NCBI GenBank assembly: GCA_021789095.1
Contig: JAJYJX010000078.1
Coordinates: 1-10,975 of the forward strand
Length of the DNA stretch: 10,975 nt
Source: a bacterium
GTDB taxonomy: Bacteria > JAMCPX01
Direction: 5' to 3'
Made by a program: the position numbers and the translations under genes
Part shown: positions 870 through 8,531 of the stretch, in pieces
Layout: every line of letters starts with the position of its first letter
How positions within the stretch are numbered: the first letter of the stretch is position 1
Notes under the pieces: generated by a model
Told to the model about the DNA's origin: nothing
What the model saw: only the letters and a program-made list of their open reading frames with translations
Databases searched by the model: none

Positions 870-3182
870 TTATTGAGAGAACCTGATATACCGTACGAGC
901 AAAAATAAACAGATTAAACCGCACAACCCCAGCCATAAACCTATCATGAAGCTCAATGGTCTGTATTTCAAAACAACGATATGTTTGCCGCCTTGCAGGA
1001 ACACGCCGTCAAATGCAAAATCTGTCCGTATGAGTTTTGATTCTTTGTTGTCCACATATGCCTTCCAGCCGGGGAAGTATGCATTGCTGATTACCAGCAG
1101 ACCCGGTGACGGGGTGTCAACCTCCATCTCAATGGAGGAGGGATGATAACTAACGAACCTGATTTCTCCGTGGTTGTTTGTTCGTAAACTATCTGGGTTA
1201 AAAGAGGCATACTGAATATCTTGATTCGGGATGACAGCTAGATTGCGGAGCTGTGCCGCATAATTAAGTGTCAATTTGAGAAATTCATCGTCGGTATGAG
1301 CTATCCTGTAGGCATAAACCATAAAAGCCCTGTTAAAAGCCGAGAGGTTTTTATACAGAACATATCCGTTATCTTCAGCCATAAACTCTACATCAAAAGG
1401 AGGTGGCAGTATACCGTCTTTGTTGAGGACTATATACTTTACATTTGCGAGATTTAAAAAGTCAGGGCTTGGCATTGTTCTGTACAGGAGTTCATACCAT
1501 TTTATTCCAAGTACATCGAAACCTCTTAAGTCTTCTATTGTATAATATGTATTTATATCCGCATCCCATGCGGCCCACTGAGAGAGATGTGAAATAATAG
1601 GAAAAGCTCTGAATGGGGGCGGCTCGCTTTTAAGGATTTTGATTATCTTGTTTTGAGGATATAAATATGCGGGTTTTATTGCTGTCTCATAGTGCATCAT
1701 GGGCAAAGCTGTTTGTGAGAAAACCAGCAATAGCAGAAGATAAGATTTAAGATTCGTATTGCGTACCTTTAATACACCTACTGTGGCTGACAGAAATAGA
1801 AACGTTATCACTACGTCCAGTACAGTATAAAAATAAAATTCTTTTAAAACAAACGGGTCTATATGAACATTGATTGAGAAAAGATATACAACCAGAAGGA
1901 TGACTGTAATGAGTATAATAATTAATATCGAGTACTTTACAAGGCCGGATTGTATGTTATTCTCAAAAAATGAATTCATGGCCATGAGTGCAATCAGTAT
2001 GACAAAGATATTGGAGCATCCGAACATCCAGGTATTTGCACTGACACGGAATATTGGAAGAAGTGTTATAAAATTGTGCAGTATTGGTACATGAAACGCA
2101 ACAATTCCTATGTAAAATAGGATTGCCGTAAAAAACAAAGCCAGGGTGTTTTTATAAAACCTAAACAATCCTATTACAAAAAATAACAACATGGTTATTC
2201 CAACATAGCCCAAAGGCAGAGGGAACCCGCTCATAATCACGTTAATATTAATAATATCCGGTTTCAGAAAAGCACTCAAAAAATCGGGTACTATACTAAT
2301 AAACATAACAGCAGATGGAACATAATAAGCATTAACATGTGAAGATCTTAACATATAAATGTAACTGTAATAAAGGTATTGCAGAAATGGGAGCCATTGA
2401 ACAGCAGAGATTAACACCGCTATGAATATAAAAAGGGATGTTCTAAGAAGAATTGTTTTTGTATATCCTCTTGCTCTGTTTTGAAATAGTCTGAAGATAA
2501 AGTAAACTACGAGAATTGATGCCTCATAAAACAGCATCTCCGGATGTCCGCCGAAAACAGCTACGATAGAACCTATGGATAATAATAAATATCCTTTAAC
2601 ATTATTCGGCGTATCTACTATGAGTTCTGTTGCCAGCATTCCGAGCGGCAGGTAAAAAGCAAGATTTGTCTGAGTCCAGTAAAGAAAAGCCGTATTGAAT
2701 CCTGCAAACATAAGTGCACAAGAGCCTGTGACAGAGAGCTCATGTTTTATACCTATCTTACGGGTGTACAGGTACATAAAGATCCCTGCAAAATACAGCT
2801 TGAAGAAATACAAAAAGAACAGCCCCCATTTTAATCCAAACAGGTAAACAAAAAAGTTAAGCGGATAGAAAAAAGCAGATAGTATGTTGGCAATATCAGG
2901 TAGGCCGCAAGCCTGGTACGGGTTCCAGAAAGGCAAATGCCCTTGTTCCAATGATGCTTTATTAAATGCAAGATATGGAATGAAGCCAAGAACCGGATCT
3001 GTAAGATATGCATTCTGTGGATAGGGAGATAATCCCTTTTCTTTGAAAAAGGGATATGTTTGTAGTATATCAGAAGGGACCTGTATTCTATCAGTAAAAA
3101 GAGGGCGGTAAAAAAATATCATCAATGACAGTATCAGAATCAGGTTTGCATGAAGGAATCTCTTATCTTTGACTAATTTCAT
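870..3182 (-). CDS. YfhO-family polytopic membrane protein (GT-C-like glycosyltransferase)
   Basis: This is a 770-residue integral membrane protein. One transmembrane segment near the N-terminus (about residues 10-29) is followed by a conserved loop with D-P-V-L-G-F and L-P-F-W-N-P-Y-Q-A-C-G-L-P (about 62-95). Many further hydrophobic helices run to about residue 490. A soluble region of about 200 residues comes next, then a final helix before the basic end R-Y-I-R-F-S-Q. The C-terminal P-G-L-L-V-I-S-N-A-Y-F-P-G-W-K-A-Y-V-D motif is characteristic of YfhO-like proteins, which are thought to transfer sugars from a polyprenyl-phosphate donor outside the membrane. The donor and acceptor here are unknown. 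The length fits the family. The ATG at 3182 is supported by the matching N-terminus of the decayed neighbour copy (R-R/K-R-F-L-H-A-N-L). No convincing ribosome binding site precedes it. It begins 10 bp after the stop of the upstream paralogous fragment, so the two may once have been co-transcribed. Confidence 0.85.
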   Translation of the reverse strand: MKLVKDKRFLHANLILILSLMIFFYRPLFTDRIQVPSDILQTYPFFKEKGLSPYPQNAYLTDPVLGFIPYLAFNKASLEQGHLPFWNPYQACGLPDIANILSAFFYPLNFFVYLFGLKWGLFFLYFFKLYFAGIFMYLYTRKIGIKHELSVTGSCALMFAGFNTAFLYWTQTNLAFYLPLGMLATELIVDTPNNVKGYLLLSIGSIVAVFGGHPEMLFYEASILVVYFIFRLFQNRARGYTKTILLRTSLFIFIAVLISAVQWLPFLQYLYYSYIYMLRSSHVNAYYVPSAVMFISIVPDFLSAFLKPDIININVIMSGFPLPLGYVGITMLLFFVIGLFRFYKNTLALFFTAILFYIGIVAFHVPILHNFITLLPIFRVSANTWMFGCSNIFVILIALMAMNSFFENNIQSGLVKYSILIIILITVILLVVYLFSINVHIDPFVLKEFYFYTVLDVVITFLFLSATVGVLKVRNTNLKSYLLLLLVFSQTALPMMHYETAIKPAYLYPQNKIIKILKSEPPPFRAFPIISHLSQWAAWDADINTYYTIEDLRGFDVLGIKWYELLYRTMPSPDFLNLANVKYIVLNKDGILPPPFDVEFMAEDNGYVLYKNLSAFNRAFMVYAYRIAHTDDEFLKLTLNYAAQLRNLAVIPNQDIQYASFNPDSLRTNNHGEIRFVSYHPSSIEMEVDTPSPGLLVISNAYFPGWKAYVDNKESKLIRTDFAFDGVFLQGGKHIVVLKYRPLSFMIGLWLGLCGLICLFLLVRYIRFSQ

Positions 3183-3192
3183 ATTGTGTTTA

Positions 3193-4819
3193 CTATATAT
3201 ACCGTATCAGCAAAAATAAACAAATGAAACCGCCCACTGCCATCCATACACTGATAGTAAAGACGAAAGGTTTGTATGTTAGGATAACCGTGTGCGTGCC
3301 GCTCTGCAGGAACACACCGTCAAACGCGAAATCCGTCCGTATGAGATTCGATTCTTTGTTGTCCACGTACACCTTCCAGCCGGGAAAGTAGGCATTGCTG
3401 ATTATCAATAAGCCCGGTGACGGGGTATCAACCTCCATCTCAATGGAGGAGGGATGGTAACTGACGAACCTGATTTCTCCGTGGCGGTCTATTCCAGAGC
3501 TATCTGCACTAAAAGAAGCATAACGAACATCCTGGTTCATGATGACGGCAAGATAGCGAAGCTGGGCAGCGTATTGAATGGTAGATTTGAGGGATTCTTC
3601 GTCATTATCAACCGGTATGTAATGATACACCATGAACGCCCTGCTGAAAGCCGAAAGGTTCTTATAGAGAACAAAACCATTGTCTTCAGCCGTGGGTTCC
3701 AAATCAAGAGAGGGCGGAGCTATATCGTCTTTACGAAAAACTATATACCTTACATTTGTTAGATTTAAAAAGTCAGGAATCGGCATTGTTCTGAACAAAA
3801 GTTCATACCACTTTATGCCGAGTATATCGTAATTTCTCAGGTCTTCTATTCCATAATATGTGGTTATGTCCTCGGGCCATGCGGGTTTCTGCGAAGGGTT
3901 CGAACTAAAAGGGAAAACCCTGAACGGAGGCGGCTGACTTTTCATGATCTCAAAAATCTTGTTCTGAGGATACAGGTATTCGGGCGGTATTGCTGTTTCA
4001 TAGGGTATCATGGGTAAGGCAGTCTGGGAAAAAACCAGCAGGAACAGAAGATAACCTTTGACACTGGCATTCCGTATTTTTAATACCAGCACGGTAGCTA
4101 ACAAGAACAGACAGGTTATACCTACGTCCAGTGCGGTATAAAAATAGAATTCCTTTACAACAAATGGGCCTACAGACGTATTTGTTGATGAAAGATATAC
4201 AACCAAAAGAATGACTGTAACGACTGTAATAATAACTATCGCATACGTTATGGAACCGGATGGTGTCTTATGTTCGAAGAATGCCTGCATGGCCGTAAGT
4301 GCAATAAGTATCACAAAGATATTGGAACATCCGAACATGAAGGTATTTGCGCTTACACGGAATACCGGGAGCAGTGTCAGGAGATGATGGAGCACCGGGA
4401 CATTAAACGCCGCAATCCCGATAACCAACAGGATTATCGTAAAGAACAGGGTGAGTGCGTTTTTATAAAACCTGAGCAGACCTGTTACAAAAAACAAGAA
4501 CAGGGTTATCCCGACATAGCCCATGGGCAGGGGTAAAATATTACCGAATACATTCAGGATATCTGTTTTCAGGAAGGCACTGAAAAAATCGGGTACTACA
4601 CTGATAAAGAGGATAAAGGATTGTAGATAATAGAAATTATGGACATACGATCTCTGCAAATAATTATAACTATAATACAGGTATTGCAGGAACGGGAGCC
4701 ACTGAAGGGCAGAGATTAATACCGCTGTCAGTAAAAAGAGGACGGTAAAAAAATAGTATCAATGATATTATCAGAATCAGGTTTGCATGAAGGAATCTTC
4801 TGTTTTCGGCTGATTTCAT
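3193..4819 (-). pseudogene. Decayed tandem copy of the YfhO-like gene, internal deletion plus frameshift
   Basis: The first codons from the ATG at 4819 read M-K-S-A-E-N-R-R-F-L-H-A-N-L-I-L and continue to F-Y-R-P-L-F-T-D, matching residues 1-31 of the adjacent intact copy. The sequence then jumps to the counterpart of residue 255 (A-V-L-I-S-A-L-Q-W-L-P-F) and stays collinear to the end. Compared with the intact copy about 668 bp are missing, which is not a multiple of three. The N-terminal frame therefore stops at a TAG soon after the junction, while the C-terminal part lies one frame over. That part is an uninterrupted frame of over 500 codons ending at 3193, including the A-Y-F-P-G-W-K-V-Y-V-D motif. 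The only candidate internal start is a TTG at 4659 without a ribosome binding site. The missing part holds the conserved loop expected to carry the active site, so a transferase function is unlikely. The C-terminal portion might still be expressed, but decay is the simpler reading. Confidence 0.8.
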
Positions 4820-5081
4820 ATACAATTTATTTACAGGAATAAAAGGGAAACCTCAAGATAAAAGGTTCCGGTGCTTTGTTATTTATTTATTTTAGTGCGT
4901 AGTAGAAACCCACTGCCTTGCAGGCTGTATCACAATGGTCATTGCGAGAGAGTAAAACGACCGAAGAAATCTTTAACCCATCGAAAAACAATAGATTGCC
5001 ACGCTCCCTCTGGTCGCTCGCGTAGACAAAAAAAGGATGATGAGACAGTCTATTTGTCGGTGGTTGTTCACTTATATTATT
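4820..5081. other. Gene-free stretch between decayed yfhO-like copy and DUF35 gene
   Basis: No credible gene lies here. Open frames across it overlap the palindromic repeat or neighbouring genes and have no family features. The left part is AT-rich, with short TTAT tandem units near 4878-4893. The right part contains the palindromic repeat described separately. No stem with a following T run was found that would serve as a terminator for the thiolase operon. The T7 on the minus strand near 5030 lacks an adjacent stem. Confidence 0.6.
4938..5027. repeat. Dispersed palindromic repeat (CATTGCGAG type), degenerate
   Basis: The left end reads GTCATTGCGAG and the right part reads AGATTGCCACGCTCCCTC followed by TGGTCGCTCGCGTAGAC. 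The reverse complement of the right arm (GTCTACGCGAGCGACC...) aligns imperfectly with the left arm, which also carries GACCGAAGAAATCT opposite AGATTGCC. From memory, many delta-proteobacterial and Nitrospirota-type genomes hold hundreds of copies of such an element, with outer ends CATTGCGAG and CTCGCAATG and an inner GCAATCT/AGATTGC. This copy has mutated ends and an unpaired centre. It sits downstream of the thiolase operon, a usual intergenic location for REP/MITE-like elements. Confidence 0.65.
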
Positions 5082-5531
5082 TTATATCAACTGGAAATGT
5101 GACAGGTCTGCAAGTGCACCGCTGGTCGTATCCTTCCACACGACCTTTACCCGCATACCCTCTCGTACGCTGTGCCATTCTGTCCAGCCTTCGAGGGTAC
5201 CCATAAGAAATGAATCAGATCCGTCAAGTTTTACCGTGCATGTAATAAATGGATTTTCTACAGGAATGCCGCGTACATCTGCAAGATTAACGGTAAATGC
5301 ATCGAGTACGCCTTCCTGACTTACTTCAACCACCTGATCAATATCTATGAGGCACTTTCTGCAATACGTGGGTCCTGGCACATAAACTGTACCGCATTGA
5401 TGGCATTTCCTGCCCAATATTTTCTTGTCCTTTGTCCCCTTTATGAATAGATTCAGTGCATCAGCCTCGATCTTAAACTGATATGCTGTAAGGTCCCATG
5501 TGCTTTCTATTGTCCTCGTTTCCTGAGTCAT
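5082..5531 (-). CDS. DUF35 Zn-ribbon/OB-fold protein 1 (thiolase partner)
   Basis: This 149-residue protein has the DUF35 layout. An N-terminal helical segment (about 17-38) is followed by a rubredoxin-like zinc ribbon with C43, C46, C57 and C60 (K-C-H-Q-C...Y-C-R-K-C). A C-terminal OB-fold from about residue 70 ends in V-K-V-V-W-K-D-T. Proteins of this family bind thiolase-fold enzymes. In the archaeal thiolase/HMG-CoA synthase complex they shuttle acyl-CoA. In BbsA-BbsB and in the ChsH2-Ltp2 steroid aldolase they complete or stabilise the active complex. It is the last gene of the four-gene operon. Its ATG follows the thiolase A stop by 10 bp, and the purine run AAGGGGG overlapping that stop is its ribosome binding site. 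It has exactly the length of the DUF35 protein that opens the operon and aligns with it through the ribbon, so the two are paralogues. The family call is firm; the precise substrate is unknown. Confidence 0.9.
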   Translation of the reverse strand: MTQETRTIESTWDLTAYQFKIEADALNLFIKGTKDKKILGRKCHQCGTVYVPGPTYCRKCLIDIDQVVEVSQEGVLDAFTVNLADVRGIPVENPFITCTVKLDGSDSFLMGTLEGWTEWHSVREGMRVKVVWKDTTSGALADLSHFQLI

Positions 5532-5541
5532 AATATCCCCC

Positions 5542-6789
5542 TTATGATTTTACAGGCGTTTTACCTAATACTGTTACGGTAACAAACTGGAATAATCCAC
5601 CCCAGCCATGTGCAACCACGTTTTCAATTTTTCGCTGGACCTGATGTCCTCCCTCAGCAAGCCCCATAACCTGTAATGCAGCCTCACCCACCCTTACCAT
5701 TGCCGATGCACCTATTGCATTTGTACTCGTTACGCCGCCTGAAGGATTGATCGGTATCTCACCGTCAATTGCAAATGCACCTTTATCAAGCATCTTAGGC
5801 GATGCGCCTTCCTCAACAAGACCGAGTCGTTCAGGCCACATAAGGTCCTGGTGAGAAAAACCGGAATAAACCTCTGCCATCTGAATATCCTTTTTCGGAT
5901 CCTTGATGCCAGCCATACTGTATACCTTCTTAGCAACTATTTTGCATATCTGTTGCTCAGCAGGGTCAGTGATCTGTCCCTCAATGAGATTACCTGTTGT
6001 GGCGTCTGATGTGCCTGAACCAAGTCCTTTGATCCATGCAATCCGGTCCGTTAGACCGAACTTCTTTGCTTTTTCCTCAGATACCAGGATCATGGCTATG
6101 GCTCCGCATGATGTAGGGCATGTGTGACCAAATCGTAGCGGATAAGATATAATAGGAGTTTTTGCTATGTCTGCTTCTGTGCACCCGGGTTGCTGAAGAT
6201 GTGCATAAGGGTTTTTTGCCGCATTCGATCTCATCATTGCTGCAACCCTATCAATGTGTTCGATACCTGCATTGGCCTTTGCAAGATAGGACATTGCCTG
6301 AAATGCCGCACCTCCTGTAGAGCCACCGCCGCCAAGACCTGCTATGCCGCGATCCGTGCTCGTGTCAGGCCCAAAATGAAACAATGAAAATGCCTCCGGA
6401 AGTAATATGCCCATTAAGCCTACCTGGGAGTCTCCTTCATCCTGTTTTTCCCATCCTATTGCCATAACAACGTCGTAAAGCCCGGATGCTACATGATAGT
6501 AAGCCGCTTGATACACAGATGCCCCTGTTGTACCTCCGGTTGCGATTCTCATCACTGGCTTCATGTTGCCGTTGAAATGTTCGCTTGCCCACAGGTGCGG
6601 CTGGTTTACTCCTTCAAATGTATGCATATTACCGACGACATATGCATCGATATCTTCAGGTTTGAGCCTTGTTTTACCCAGCGCATTGGTGACGGCAGGC
6701 TGTATGAGCTCGGGTATGTTGACGTCCGGCCTTTTGCTTACGAACCTGCCGTTATAACCAACGCTTATGATTGCAACATTGCGCTTCAT
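5542..6789 (-). CDS. Thiolase-like protein A lacking catalytic Cys (possible aldolase)
   Basis: This 415-residue protein has the thiolase fold, nearest to the SCP-x/SCP-2 type. It shows an N-terminal A-I-I-S-V-G-Y strand, a G-L-Y-D-V-V-M-A-I-G-W-E-K segment (about 103-115), N-P-S-G-G (348-352) and a closing H-G-W-G-G (394-398). Counting back a family-constant 17 residues from G103, the nucleophilic cysteine position is Gly86 (G-T-T-G-A instead of C-x-S-G). The GHP motif is T-N-A (about 356-358), and the N-E-A-F or H-D-x-F site reads E-V-Y-S-G-F-S with Y308. With neither cysteine nor GHP histidine, classical thiolysis is improbable. Cys-less relatives working with DUF35 partners, such as Ltp2-ChsH2, cleave beta-hydroxyacyl-CoA by retro-aldol chemistry, which is the best analogy here. 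The start is set by AGGAGG five bases upstream, inside the last codons of thiolase B, so the two are probably translationally coupled. Cytoplasmic; substrate unknown. Confidence 0.85.
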   Translation of the reverse strand: MKRNVAIISVGYNGRFVSKRPDVNIPELIQPAVTNALGKTRLKPEDIDAYVVGNMHTFEGVNQPHLWASEHFNGNMKPVMRIATGGTTGASVYQAAYYHVASGLYDVVMAIGWEKQDEGDSQVGLMGILLPEAFSLFHFGPDTSTDRGIAGLGGGGSTGGAAFQAMSYLAKANAGIEHIDRVAAMMRSNAAKNPYAHLQQPGCTEADIAKTPIISYPLRFGHTCPTSCGAIAMILVSEEKAKKFGLTDRIAWIKGLGSGTSDATTGNLIEGQITDPAEQQICKIVAKKVYSMAGIKDPKKDIQMAEVYSGFSHQDLMWPERLGLVEEGASPKMLDKGAFAIDGEIPINPSGGVTSTNAIGASAMVRVGEAALQVMGLAEGGHQVQRKIENVVAHGWGGLFQFVTVTVLGKTPVKS

Positions 6790-6791
6790 GC

Positions 6792-7937
6792 TTACCTCCT
6801 TATAACAAAAACAGTGTTTGACTGGGCGCCTGGTCCGTCCTGGGCATGAACAACAGCGGTTTTTGCACCTTTGATCTGGTTTTTCCCCGCCTCTTTCCTG
6901 AGCTGTGCGCTTGCCTCTGCAAGCCGTATCAGGCCGGTCGCATTTACAGGGTTTGCACCAAGAGGTCCTCCTGACGGGTTTACGGGTATTGAGCCGCCAA
7001 TCCTGCTCTCACCGTTCTTTACAACATCCTTTGCACTGCCGGGCTTGAACAGTCCCATTGCCTCTGTAAACACAGGTTCTTCTGAAGCAAAGTTTGTATG
7101 GAGTTCTGCAAGGTCAATCTCTTTTCTTGGGTTCTTTATGCCTGCCATTTTGTATGCCTTTTTTGCAGCACCTGCAAGGCTGTCCATCTTTAATAAGTCC
7201 CTGTCGCCGATGTAATAGGTGTCCATCAAATGGCCGACACCATCTATCCATACAGGCTTGTCGGTAAATTTCCTGGCCATTTTCTTCGAAGACAGTACAA
7301 CGGCACATGCACCGTCGGCATAAGCAGAAACATGCGCCTGCCTGATCGGCGTATACAAAAGTTTAGACCCCAAGACTTTATCAACAGATGCATCCGGTTC
7401 CTTTCTTGCCGAGTAAGGGTTGTTGTTTGCGTTCTCGAGGTTTTTTACGGTAAGGGCTGCGAGGTCCTCTTCCGTGAACCTGTATTTTTTCATGTATGCC
7501 CCCGCCTGAAGTGCAGCGGCCGAATAATAATTGATGAGGGCTCGCGGTCTTTCATAAGCAGGATCCATGGTGTACGCCTGCGTGAGCGGGACTCTGAACT
7601 CGGACCCGGACATACTGAATCCGATAACGAGTGCTGTATTGTAAAGCCCGGAGAGGATACGCATATAAGCGTATAATGCAGCGTTGAGCCCGTCTGCCTC
7701 GACCTTTGTCTCGTCCTTCATGTATGCGCCTATCCTCGGAACAGTGAATACTTCGGAGATCGTTCTGCCGTCCGTAAAATCATTGCTTGCAAGTATGAAC
7801 GTATCAATATCGTCCTTTGTAATGCCCATGTCCTTGTATAAGGACTTTACCAGCTCGTAGATTATCCTTTCTCTCGCAACAGGGCTTTCGAATGTATGTT
7901 TCGTTTGTTTATAACCCACTAGAGCGACCTTTTCCAT
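6792..7937 (-). CDS. Thiolase-like protein B lacking catalytic Cys
   Basis: This 381-residue protein is a second, diverged thiolase-fold member. Its N-terminal K-V-A-L-V-G-Y strand, L-S-G-L-Y-N-T-A-L-V-I-G-F (about 95-107), Y-A-D-G-A-C-A-V-V-L-S segment, N-P-S-G-G (320-324) and H-A-Q-D-G-P-G near the C-terminus mark the fold. The position of the nucleophilic cysteine is Glu80 (E-A-D-G-L-N-A-A in place of C-G-S-G-L-x-A). The GHP site reads A-N-P (328-330). The H-D-x-F-like site is L-H-T-N-F with H280. It is therefore unlikely to be a standard acyltransferase. It may be a structural or regulatory partner of thiolase-like A, or a separate lyase paired with the upstream DUF35 protein. The ATG lies 11 bp after the DUF35 stop, with TAA directly followed by AGGAGG and a 5-base spacer. 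Its own stop is 2 bp from the thiolase A start. The family call is strong; the function is not known. Confidence 0.82.
   Translation of the reverse strand: MEKVALVGYKQTKHTFESPVARERIIYELVKSLYKDMGITKDDIDTFILASNDFTDGRTISEVFTVPRIGAYMKDETKVEADGLNAALYAYMRILSGLYNTALVIGFSMSGSEFRVPLTQAYTMDPAYERPRALINYYSAAALQAGAYMKKYRFTEEDLAALTVKNLENANNNPYSARKEPDASVDKVLGSKLLYTPIRQAHVSAYADGACAVVLSSKKMARKFTDKPVWIDGVGHLMDTYYIGDRDLLKMDSLAGAAKKAYKMAGIKNPRKEIDLAELHTNFASEEPVFTEAMGLFKPGSAKDVVKNGESRIGGSIPVNPSGGPLGANPVNATGLIRLAEASAQLRKEAGKNQIKGAKTAVVHAQDGPGAQSNTVFVIRR
6795..6800 (-). promoter_or_regulatory. Shine-Dalgarno of thiolase A, inside thiolase B tail
   Basis: AGGAGG on the minus strand encodes the two last arginines of thiolase B (AGG AGG, then TAA). 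It lies five bases before the thiolase A ATG at 6789. It fixes the thiolase A start and implies that ribosomes ending on B reinitiate on A. Confidence 0.85.
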
Positions 7938-7942
7938 ACGTG

Positions 7943-7948
7943 CCTCCT
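7943..7948 (-). promoter_or_regulatory. Shine-Dalgarno of thiolase B
   Basis: AGGAGG starts immediately after the TAA of the upstream DUF35 gene and lies five bases before the ATG at 7937. It supports that start and coupled translation. Confidence 0.8.
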
Positions 7949-8398
7949 TTATACAGGTTCAAAATACGCAAGGTCGTTGTAATCACCCCGAGTTGTGTCC
8001 TTCCACACAGCCCTTACCTTCATGCCGGTTTTTACAGCGCCGGGAGATGATGCCTTGATAACTGCCGACAGCAGGCTTGAAGCACCCTTCAGTTTTATCA
8101 AACCTATTACATAGGGTTCCTGTGTGTCCTTGATCTCCCCGTTTATTATATTTACATATGCTACGGTAAAACTTTTCAGTACGCCCTGTTGATCAAGCTC
8201 TATAATATTATCAAGGAGCTTATGGCATTTGCCGCATACAGTGCGGGGCGGGACATACACTTTTTTGCATCTGGGACATTTTGCACCGACGATCTTTTTT
8301 CCCTTAAGTCCGTTGATGTATGTTTCGAGTGACCGGCCCACCCTGTTTTTATACATAAAAGTAATCGGAACAGAGGTTTTTACAATCTCGCCTGCCAT
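7949..8398 (-). CDS. DUF35 Zn-ribbon/OB-fold protein 2 (first gene of operon)
   Basis: A 149-residue DUF35 protein with an N-terminal helix (about 16-38) and zinc ribbon cysteines C41, C44, C55 and C58 (K-C-P-R-C...V-C-G-K-C). The OB-fold includes L-K-S-F-T-V-A-Y-V and ends V-R-A-V-W-K-D-T. In characterised systems this family docks on thiolase-fold enzymes through the ribbon and helix and contributes to acyl-CoA handling. It is the promoter-proximal gene of the four-gene operon and directly precedes thiolase-like B, its most likely partner. The start is well set: AGGAGG with a 5-base spacer before ATG. Compared with the terminal DUF35 gene it keeps the G-K/D-K-K-I-V/L-G...K-C and V-Y-V-P motifs but differs elsewhere, consistent with each member serving its own thiolase-like subunit. 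Confidence 0.9.
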   Translation of the reverse strand: MAGEIVKTSVPITFMYKNRVGRSLETYINGLKGKKIVGAKCPRCKKVYVPPRTVCGKCHKLLDNIIELDQQGVLKSFTVAYVNIINGEIKDTQEPYVIGLIKLKGASSLLSAVIKASSPGAVKTGMKVRAVWKDTTRGDYNDLAYFEPV

Positions 8399-8403
8399 AG
8401 CTC

Positions 8404-8409
8404 CCTCCT
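8404..8409 (-). promoter_or_regulatory. Shine-Dalgarno of DUF35 protein 2
   Basis: AGGAGG lies five bases before the ATG at 8398, preceded by an A/T homopolymer stretch. It decides the start of the operon's first gene. Confidence 0.8.
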
Positions 8410-8418
8410 TTTTTTAAA

Positions 8419-8447
8419 AACATACCGACAAAAGGTATGCATTGCAA
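8419..8447 (-). promoter_or_regulatory. Candidate sigma70-type promoter of the DUF35/thiolase operon
   Basis: On the minus strand TTGCAA (8447-8442) and TATGTT (8424-8419) are separated by exactly 17 bases. Each matches four of six consensus positions. Initiation would fall near 8412, leaving a short leader of about 13 bases with the ribosome binding site inside it. The fit is moderate and the region is AT-rich, so chance matches are possible. Confidence 0.4.
8421..8439. promoter_or_regulatory. 6-bp inverted repeat over the operon promoter (possible operator)
   Basis: CATACC and GGTATG form perfect 6-bp arms around a 7-base centre. The dyad covers part of the predicted -10 and most of the spacer of the minus-strand promoter, a position where a bound repressor would block transcription. 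It could equally be a small hairpin; no T run follows on either strand at terminator distance. Confidence 0.4.
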
Positions 8448-8450
8448 GCA

Positions 8451-8470
8451 TTTTGATTATTTAATCAAAA
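8451..8470. promoter_or_regulatory. 9-bp-arm palindrome upstream of the operon promoter
   Basis: TTTTGATTA and TAATCAAAA are perfect 9-base arms with the two bases TT between them. It ends a few bases from the predicted -35 of the thiolase operon and lies about 60 bp before the era start. Its length and near-perfect symmetry suit a dimeric regulator site. AT-rich palindromes also arise by chance, and no regulator gene lies in the window. Confidence 0.45.
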
Positions 8471-8531
8471 TAATAATAACCATGACAAAGCCTTGCAAAC
8501 TTACATAAATATGCTTTTAATCATAGATATT

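Follow-up and report, generated by a model that had tools for sequence, protein, structure and literature searches.

A conserved operon of two Cys-less thiolase-fold proteins and two DUF35 proteins, related to Ltp3/Ltp4, probably encodes a heteromeric acyl-CoA retro-aldolase

The stretch of bacterial DNA analysed here (the window) is the complete contig JAJYJX010000078.1 of 10,975 bp, from a genome of 2.15 Mb that is 92% complete in 203 contigs. It harbours on its minus strand a four-gene operon in the order D1 (DUF35), A, B and D2 (DUF35), where A and B denote thiolase-fold proteins of 381 and 415 amino acids (aa), respectively; an earlier note on this DNA had used the two letters the other way round. 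The coordinates of the compact DUF35-thiolase-thiolase-DUF35 operon described in that note were confirmed (Table 1), the intergenic gaps being 11, 2 and 10 bp, and an AAGGAGG/AAGGGGG-like (Shine-Dalgarno-like) element precedes the ATG of each gene. Pfam analysis revealed Thiolase_C_1 in A and B, and zf-ChsH2 with OB_ChsH2_C in D1 and D2. A and B share 26% identity, and D1 and D2 37.5%. Each DUF35 protein has an oligonucleotide/oligosaccharide-binding (OB) fold and a zinc ribbon, formed by Cys41-x2-Cys44 and Cys55-x2-Cys58 in D1 and by Cys43-x2-Cys46 and Cys57-x2-Cys60 in D2. Relatives of D1 in the PDB are 3irb (SSO2064), PhlB, ChsH2 and the DUF35 of Shy; nothing usable was found in the literature on the Sulfolobus genes adjoining SSO2064.

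A homologue search seeded with A alone yielded 80 loci, each of which was scored for B-like and DUF35-like neighbours. Linkage was assessed where the flanking sequence reached 1.3 kb or more upstream and 3 kb or more downstream, as it did for 50 A-type genes. In 49 of these, a Tyr-type B lay on the same strand no more than 5 kb away, and the complete four-gene set was present in 46 of the 50, in bacteria as well as archaea; the gene-neighbourhood check suggested earlier thus bore out four-way synteny. One of the four loci without the full set, L049, has a B that contains masked sequence. The linkage of the four genes exceeds chance. The bacterial hosts belong to Actinomycetota, Chloroflexota, Desulfobacterota/Myxococcota, Kiritimatiellota, Zixibacteria and Planctomycetota, and the archaeal hosts to Bathyarchaeota, Loki-, Thor- and Jordarchaeia, Thermoplasmatota and Nitrososphaeria. 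The order D-A-B-D is found in the window, whereas most archaea have A-B-D-D. In the window's own family, B was accompanied by an adjacent A in all nine sampled genomes; the near relatives are metagenome-assembled genomes, some of them filed as 'Deltaproteobacteria'. Literature searches on archaeal Cys-less thiolase pairs and on mutase linkage returned no description of this four-gene set.

We aligned 170 thiolase-fold proteins from the loci, which fell into three kinds. The nucleophilic Cys, the HDCF/HDAx motif and the His of the GHP motif are all kept by 16 proteins, mostly ordinary Bathyarchaeota thiolases neighbouring the set. In B-type proteins the Cys position is occupied by Gly in 78/78 sequences (Gly86 in window B). 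Of the two other sites, the one that opens HDCF holds Tyr and that of the GHP His holds Asn, each in 73/73, a count that leaves out four other Cys-less proteins with HDAF/HDAY and one masked sequence. Gly86, Tyr308 and Asn357 were invariant in all 34 non-redundant B sequences from bacteria and archaea, and these sequences contained no other invariant Cys or Ser near the nucleophile position as a substitute. A further alignment gave the identical result for the three residues. Tyr308, which aligned with the His of the SCP2-thiolase HDCF, opens the motif YSGF; the third position of this motif (Gly310) is Pro, Gly or Ala across the B family. All A-type proteins lack three residues of the nucleophile loop, shortened around Glu80 in window A. 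The residue at the Tyr308 position of A-type proteins is variable (Asp, Ser, His, Tyr or others), and none of their catalytic-site residues is conserved. The GHP His is replaced by Asn in window A, as it is in window B.

The absence of the nucleophilic Cys and of the GHP His from both proteins, as claimed in the earlier note, was therefore upheld, and no conserved catalytic Cys was found in A-type or B-type proteins. A Cys hidden by misalignment was rejected, given the uniform Gly of B and the loop deletion in every A. The aligned residues set A and B apart: B keeps an active site that is altered but ordered, and A does not. The invariance of three residues in B while A varies is the pattern expected of selection on an active site. 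The description of two Cys-less subunits is thus correct for both, although only B has a candidate catalytic signature and A looks dismantled. The AlphaFold models of A (predicted local distance difference test score, pLDDT, 92) and B (pLDDT 84) have the thiolase fold, with Z scores of 51.7 (A) and 51.4 (B) to 6esq and of 43.3 (B) to Ltp2 (6ok1), fold similarity by itself not deciding the type of reaction. A and B share the fold of SCP2-type thiolases and lack the combination of Cys, HDCF and GHP His. Since the nucleophile is missing, the thiolase or acetyl-coenzyme A (acetyl-CoA) acetyltransferase reaction named by the matching models is unlikely. The window's genome, G000, also has a separate class of Cys-less proteins (loci L002 and L003, contigs C190 and C105) with HDAF, a GHP-type His and Gly in place of the nucleophile; a separate DUF35 gene accompanies each of them.

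The Tyr of Y294DHF in Ltp2 and of Y302DCY in Sal is the catalytic base of retro-aldol cleavage, the Gly at the nucleophilic Cys site of Sal precludes thiolysis, and the DUF35 and aldolase dimer of Sal form an alpha-beta-beta-alpha complex (PMC12329534). B resembles Ltp2-ChsH2 (6ok1) in its Cys-less thiolase fold, DUF35 partner and Tyr in a YxxF motif, with Gly86 and Tyr308 at the corresponding sites, and the Sal-Shy bile-acid aldolase (9myr) in its Cys-less fold with DUF35, Tyr base position and Gly at the Cys site. However, both enzymes are homodimers. Ltp2 is served by one kind of DUF35, which is a domain within ChsH2, the hydratase subunit, and the DUF35 of Shy is likewise fused to a hydratase, whereas the window has an A/B pair with D1 and D2. 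Ltp2 combines YDHF with Tyr344, and B combines YSGF with Asn357; the His at motif position 3 and Tyr344 of Ltp2 are thus replaced by Gly310 and Asn357 in B, Tyr344 being assigned to the GHP His position from residue spacing. Cys304 of Sal (YDCY), which acts as the acid, is Gly310 in B, and Cys does not occur at this position in the B family. Lacking the second residue of either enzyme, B is neither an Ltp2 nor a Sal. The benzoylsuccinyl-CoA thiolase BbsAB (7pxp) and the archaeal thiolase/HMG-CoA synthase/DUF35 system (6esq), which like the window combine an SCP2-type fold with DUF35 and gave Z scores among the highest, are Cys-dependent and have a single thiolase type as against two in the window. 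The Friedel-Crafts acylase PhlACB (5m3k) has active and inactive thiolase-superfamily proteins with one DUF35 in one operon (PMC2954200), and the window similarly combines candidate active and inactive thiolase-fold subunits with DUF35; however, PhlC uses a catalytic Cys, and the inactive PhlA with a single DUF35 makes a different composition.

The closest functionally studied system was Ltp3/Ltp4 with Rv3521. The gene order in Mycobacterium tuberculosis is Rv3520c, Rv3521, Rv3522 (ltp4) and Rv3523 (ltp3) (PMC6429209), and other publications call ltp3 and ltp4 aldol lyases acting on C24-branched sterols (PMC6593523, PMC7807495, PMC10398937). In records from a plasmid collection, Streptomyces clavuligerus, Tsukamurella, Nocardia and Nonomuraea have two DUF35 units fused in one gene (double OB_ChsH2_C), with an A-like and then a B-like gene after it, and all four pairs have exactly the A (loop deletion) and B (Gly/Tyr/Asn) signatures. 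The three pairs scanned (Streptomyces, Tsukamurella and Nocardia) exceeded the NCBIfam cut-offs of PRK07937 and PRK08313, which are equated here with Ltp4 and Ltp3 on gene order, not on M. tuberculosis sequences. In Nocardia, a gene of the F420_Rv3520c family, above its cut-off, precedes the double DUF35, A-like and B-like genes, thereby matching the order Rv3520c-Rv3521-ltp4-ltp3. Both ltp3 and ltp4 are reportedly termed essential in the title of Wilbrink et al. 2012, the source cited for the aldol lyases. Window A showed 28-32% identity to Ltp4-like (PRK07937) proteins and grouped with them in a quick IQ-TREE tree, with a Shimodaira-Hasegawa-like approximate likelihood ratio test (SH-aLRT) support of 97.

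The Ltp3/Ltp4 system, which occurs in Mycobacterium, Rhodococcus and Nocardia in the KstR sterol regulon, and the window both have an asymmetric thiolase-fold pair in A-then-B order, accompanied by two DUF35 units. In the window the two units are encoded separately, by one gene on either side of the thiolases, and in the Ltp3/Ltp4 system by one fused gene before them; no sterol, ligase or F420 genes lie near the window operon. The operon is best read as a divergent Ltp3/Ltp4-like set, which it appears to be by signature. The term 'unrecognised' used previously for the enzyme is therefore too strong in view of these reported aldol lyases, although divergence from Ltp3/Ltp4 proper stands. The fused actinobacterial double DUF35s support the view that both DUF35s serve one complex and, together with the four-way synteny, the earlier suggestion that all four proteins may form a single one. 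An apparent B-DUF35 fusion at locus L043 was rejected, since its junction is a masked N/X run.

The absence of dehydrogenase, CoA ligase and hydratase genes beside the operon, pointed out in the earlier note, holds for the window but not for many relatives. Acyl-CoA dehydrogenase genes were found near the cluster in 16 loci, CoA ligase in 10 and the large subunit of a methylmalonyl-CoA mutase (MCM)-type mutase in 13, the last usually with a B12 subunit and MeaB, and in seven loci with a CobA adenosyltransferase. The position of the MCM Tyr is Phe in most linked mutases, which is the isobutyryl-CoA-mutase pattern, and Tyr in Zixibacteria L087, where a biotin-carboxylase gene lies nearby. The L041-type mutase sequence has Gln where MCM has Arg, also an isobutyryl-CoA mutase feature. 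Assignment of the archaeal mutase as a 2-hydroxyisobutyryl-CoA mutase (best PDB match 4r3u) was not adopted on account of these pocket residues. In Bathyarchaeota loci L041, L044, L047, L050, L052, L055 and L063, the set is flanked on one side by a divergent pair of a thiolase that has the Cys and a DUF35, and on the other by an operon of B12 mutase, MeaB and CobA. The window's genome itself has 16 acyl-CoA dehydrogenase matches, eight proteins above the Thiolase_C_1 cut-off, six zf-ChsH2 matches and two mutases. This context fits branched acyl-CoA catabolism, with no particular substrate named.

Variants of the set were also seen. In a deltaproteobacterial relative (L042, 3292-4446), two SCP2 sterol-carrier domains are fused to a zf-ChsH2 (DUF35) zinc ribbon directly after the A-B pair, a fusion that suggests a hydrophobic substrate. 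On contig C148 of the window's genome (L098, 1-2082), another pair of a DUF35 and a Cys-less thiolase (HDAY) directly adjoins an acyl-CoA mutase gene, that of the small subunit which binds B12, reminiscent of the archaeal mutase linkage. The plasmid pLP1 of Rhodococcus qingshengii (L100, 8095-11679) carries two MaoC genes, a 304-aa A-like 'hypothetical' protein, a B-like thiolase and one DUF35; the operon that holds them is catabolic and also encodes acyl-CoA dehydrogenases and mycofactocin-coupled short-chain dehydrogenases/reductases.

Taken together, we consider it probable (about 0.6) that the operon encodes one heteromeric acyl-CoA retro-aldolase, with B as the catalytic subunit, A as a probably non-catalytic partner and D1 and D2 as caps. 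The linkage of the genes, the missing thiolase nucleophile, the invariant residues of B, the dismantled state of A and the homology to Ltp3/Ltp4 are shown; complex formation, aldol-lyase activity, its direction and the substrate class we infer as follows. A would be a paralogue standing in for one protomer of the homodimer that thiolases usually form, and the zinc-ribbon/OB proteins D1 and D2 would cap the A-B dimer, as DUF35 does in known complexes, and shape the CoA/acyl cleft. The substrate would be a 3-hydroxyacyl-CoA with a branched beta carbon, from whose beta-hydroxyl Tyr308 of B would remove the proton. Cleavage between C-alpha and C-beta would give a ketone (or aldehyde) and a CoA-thioester enolate, and protonation of the latter would yield acetyl- or propionyl-CoA. 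In B, the thioester may be bound with the help of Asn357 and the backbone of Gly86, and the proton donor could be supplied by A or a DUF35.

Several observations weigh against this reading. B lacks both second catalytic residues known from Ltp2 and Sal. Window B scored 353 bits against the PRK08313 cut-off of 514 and window A 210 against the PRK07937 cut-off of 419, so that both fail. Identity of window B to Ltp3-like (PRK08313) proteins is 33-36%, and its grouping with them had SH-aLRT 80, a weak node. A and B of most archaea formed a separate sister pair in the quick tree; as they group together, heteromerisation may have more than one origin. The operon adjoins era-der and yfhO-like genes, has no sterol or beta-oxidation genes beside it and is not located in a sterol-degradation regulon. 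Being below the curated cut-offs and outside a sterol locus, the set was treated as a divergent relative and not filed as Ltp3/Ltp4 proper.

Among the roles proposed before, namely acyl-CoA lyase, condensation enzyme or scaffold, the lyase is the best of three and the other two are less favoured. The same chemistry could run in the synthetic direction, as a beta-hydroxyacyl-CoA synthase in which the enolate of an acyl-CoA adds to a ketone or aldehyde, or serve a decarboxylase through the same enolate, and this we consider rather unlikely. Aldol reactions are reversible, and several archaeal operons have as neighbours an MCM-type B12 mutase and a divergently encoded thiolase/DUF35 pair with the Cys, not a full beta-oxidation set; however, Ltp2, Sal and Ltp3/Ltp4 are all degradative, and genes for acyl-CoA dehydrogenase and ligase often lie close to the set in relatives. 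TbSLP, with the same Tyr, is weakly active as a malonyl-CoA decarboxylase, but Sal has no such activity (PMC12329534). A non-catalytic scaffold or acyl-CoA binding/regulatory complex, in which both thiolase folds are pseudoenzymes, is improbable: it would account for the absence of the thiolase Cys and GHP His from A and B, of the second residues of known aldolases, and of pathway genes from the window, but not for the invariance of Gly86, Tyr308 and Asn357 in B at sites where A varies. A Claisen-type condensing enzyme or acyltransferase that resembles thiolase, BbsAB or PhlACB but works with a different nucleophile is very improbable, because, although the closest structures to B by Z are the archaeal acetoacetyl-CoA thiolase 6esq and other SCP2-type thiolases, with PhlC at 47, and PhlACB likewise pairs active and inactive proteins with DUF35 (PMC2954200), fold likeness is silent on the reaction and B has Gly, and A a deletion, at the nucleophile, with no invariant Cys or Ser nearby to replace it.

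The operon has era and der divergently upstream and two yfhO-like genes downstream, and it lies next to era/der in several sampled genomes of the same family as well. Promoter and terminator scans of the operon gave no more matches than shuffled sequences. The listed start of Era (TTG, 8493) is probably too early, as the Era match starts at a Met at about 8532; Era may start at this internal Met, and the promoter region may therefore reach 8531. The first yfhO-like gene (870-3182) has a defective tandem copy in the second (3193-4827), which lacks residues ~32-247 and has its N-terminal remnant (~4727-4819) in a different frame.

Table 1. Coordinates of the operon genes, key codons and upstream region in the window
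Feature	Position	Strand	Basis
D1, DUF35, 149 aa, first gene of operon	7949..8398	-	Open reading frame, Pfam
A, thiolase-fold, 381 aa, probable inert partner subunit (Ltp4-like)	6792..7937	-	Pfam, alignment, AlphaFold model, tree
B, thiolase-fold, 415 aa, probable catalytic subunit (Ltp3-like)	5542..6789	-	Pfam, alignment, AlphaFold model, tree
D2, DUF35, 149 aa, last gene of operon	5082..5531	-	Open reading frame, Pfam
Gly86 codon of B, thiolase nucleophilic Cys position	6532..6534	-	Alignment
Tyr308 codon of B, aligned with His of HDCF in thiolases; Tyr of YDHF (Ltp2) and YDCY (Sal)	5866..5868	-	Alignment including SCP2 thiolase; mutagenesis of equivalent Tyr (PMC12329534)
Asn357 codon of B, thiolase GHP His position	5719..5721	-	Alignment
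Glu80 codon of A, at shortened nucleophile loop	7698..7700	-	Alignment
Intergenic region towards divergent era-der, probable operon promoter region	8399..8492 (possibly to 8531)	.	era/der neighbourhood kept in same-family relatives

A broader proposal, which we put forward tentatively, is that the set represents a widespread heteromeric acyl-CoA aldolase branch of bacteria and archaea, whose own Tyr-Asn site might be completed by the partner subunit. With no carboxylation beforehand, such enzymes could split beta-branched (e.g. isoprenoid) 3-hydroxyacyl-CoAs to a ketone and acetyl- or propionyl-CoA; in archaea, the product might feed a B12-dependent acyl-CoA mutase. If the sets are aldol lyases, many bacteria and archaea would own an overlooked means of C-C cleavage next to branched carbons, where beta-oxidation stalls. 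If true, the division into one catalytic and one inert subunit would also give a framework for the need of both Ltp3 and Ltp4.

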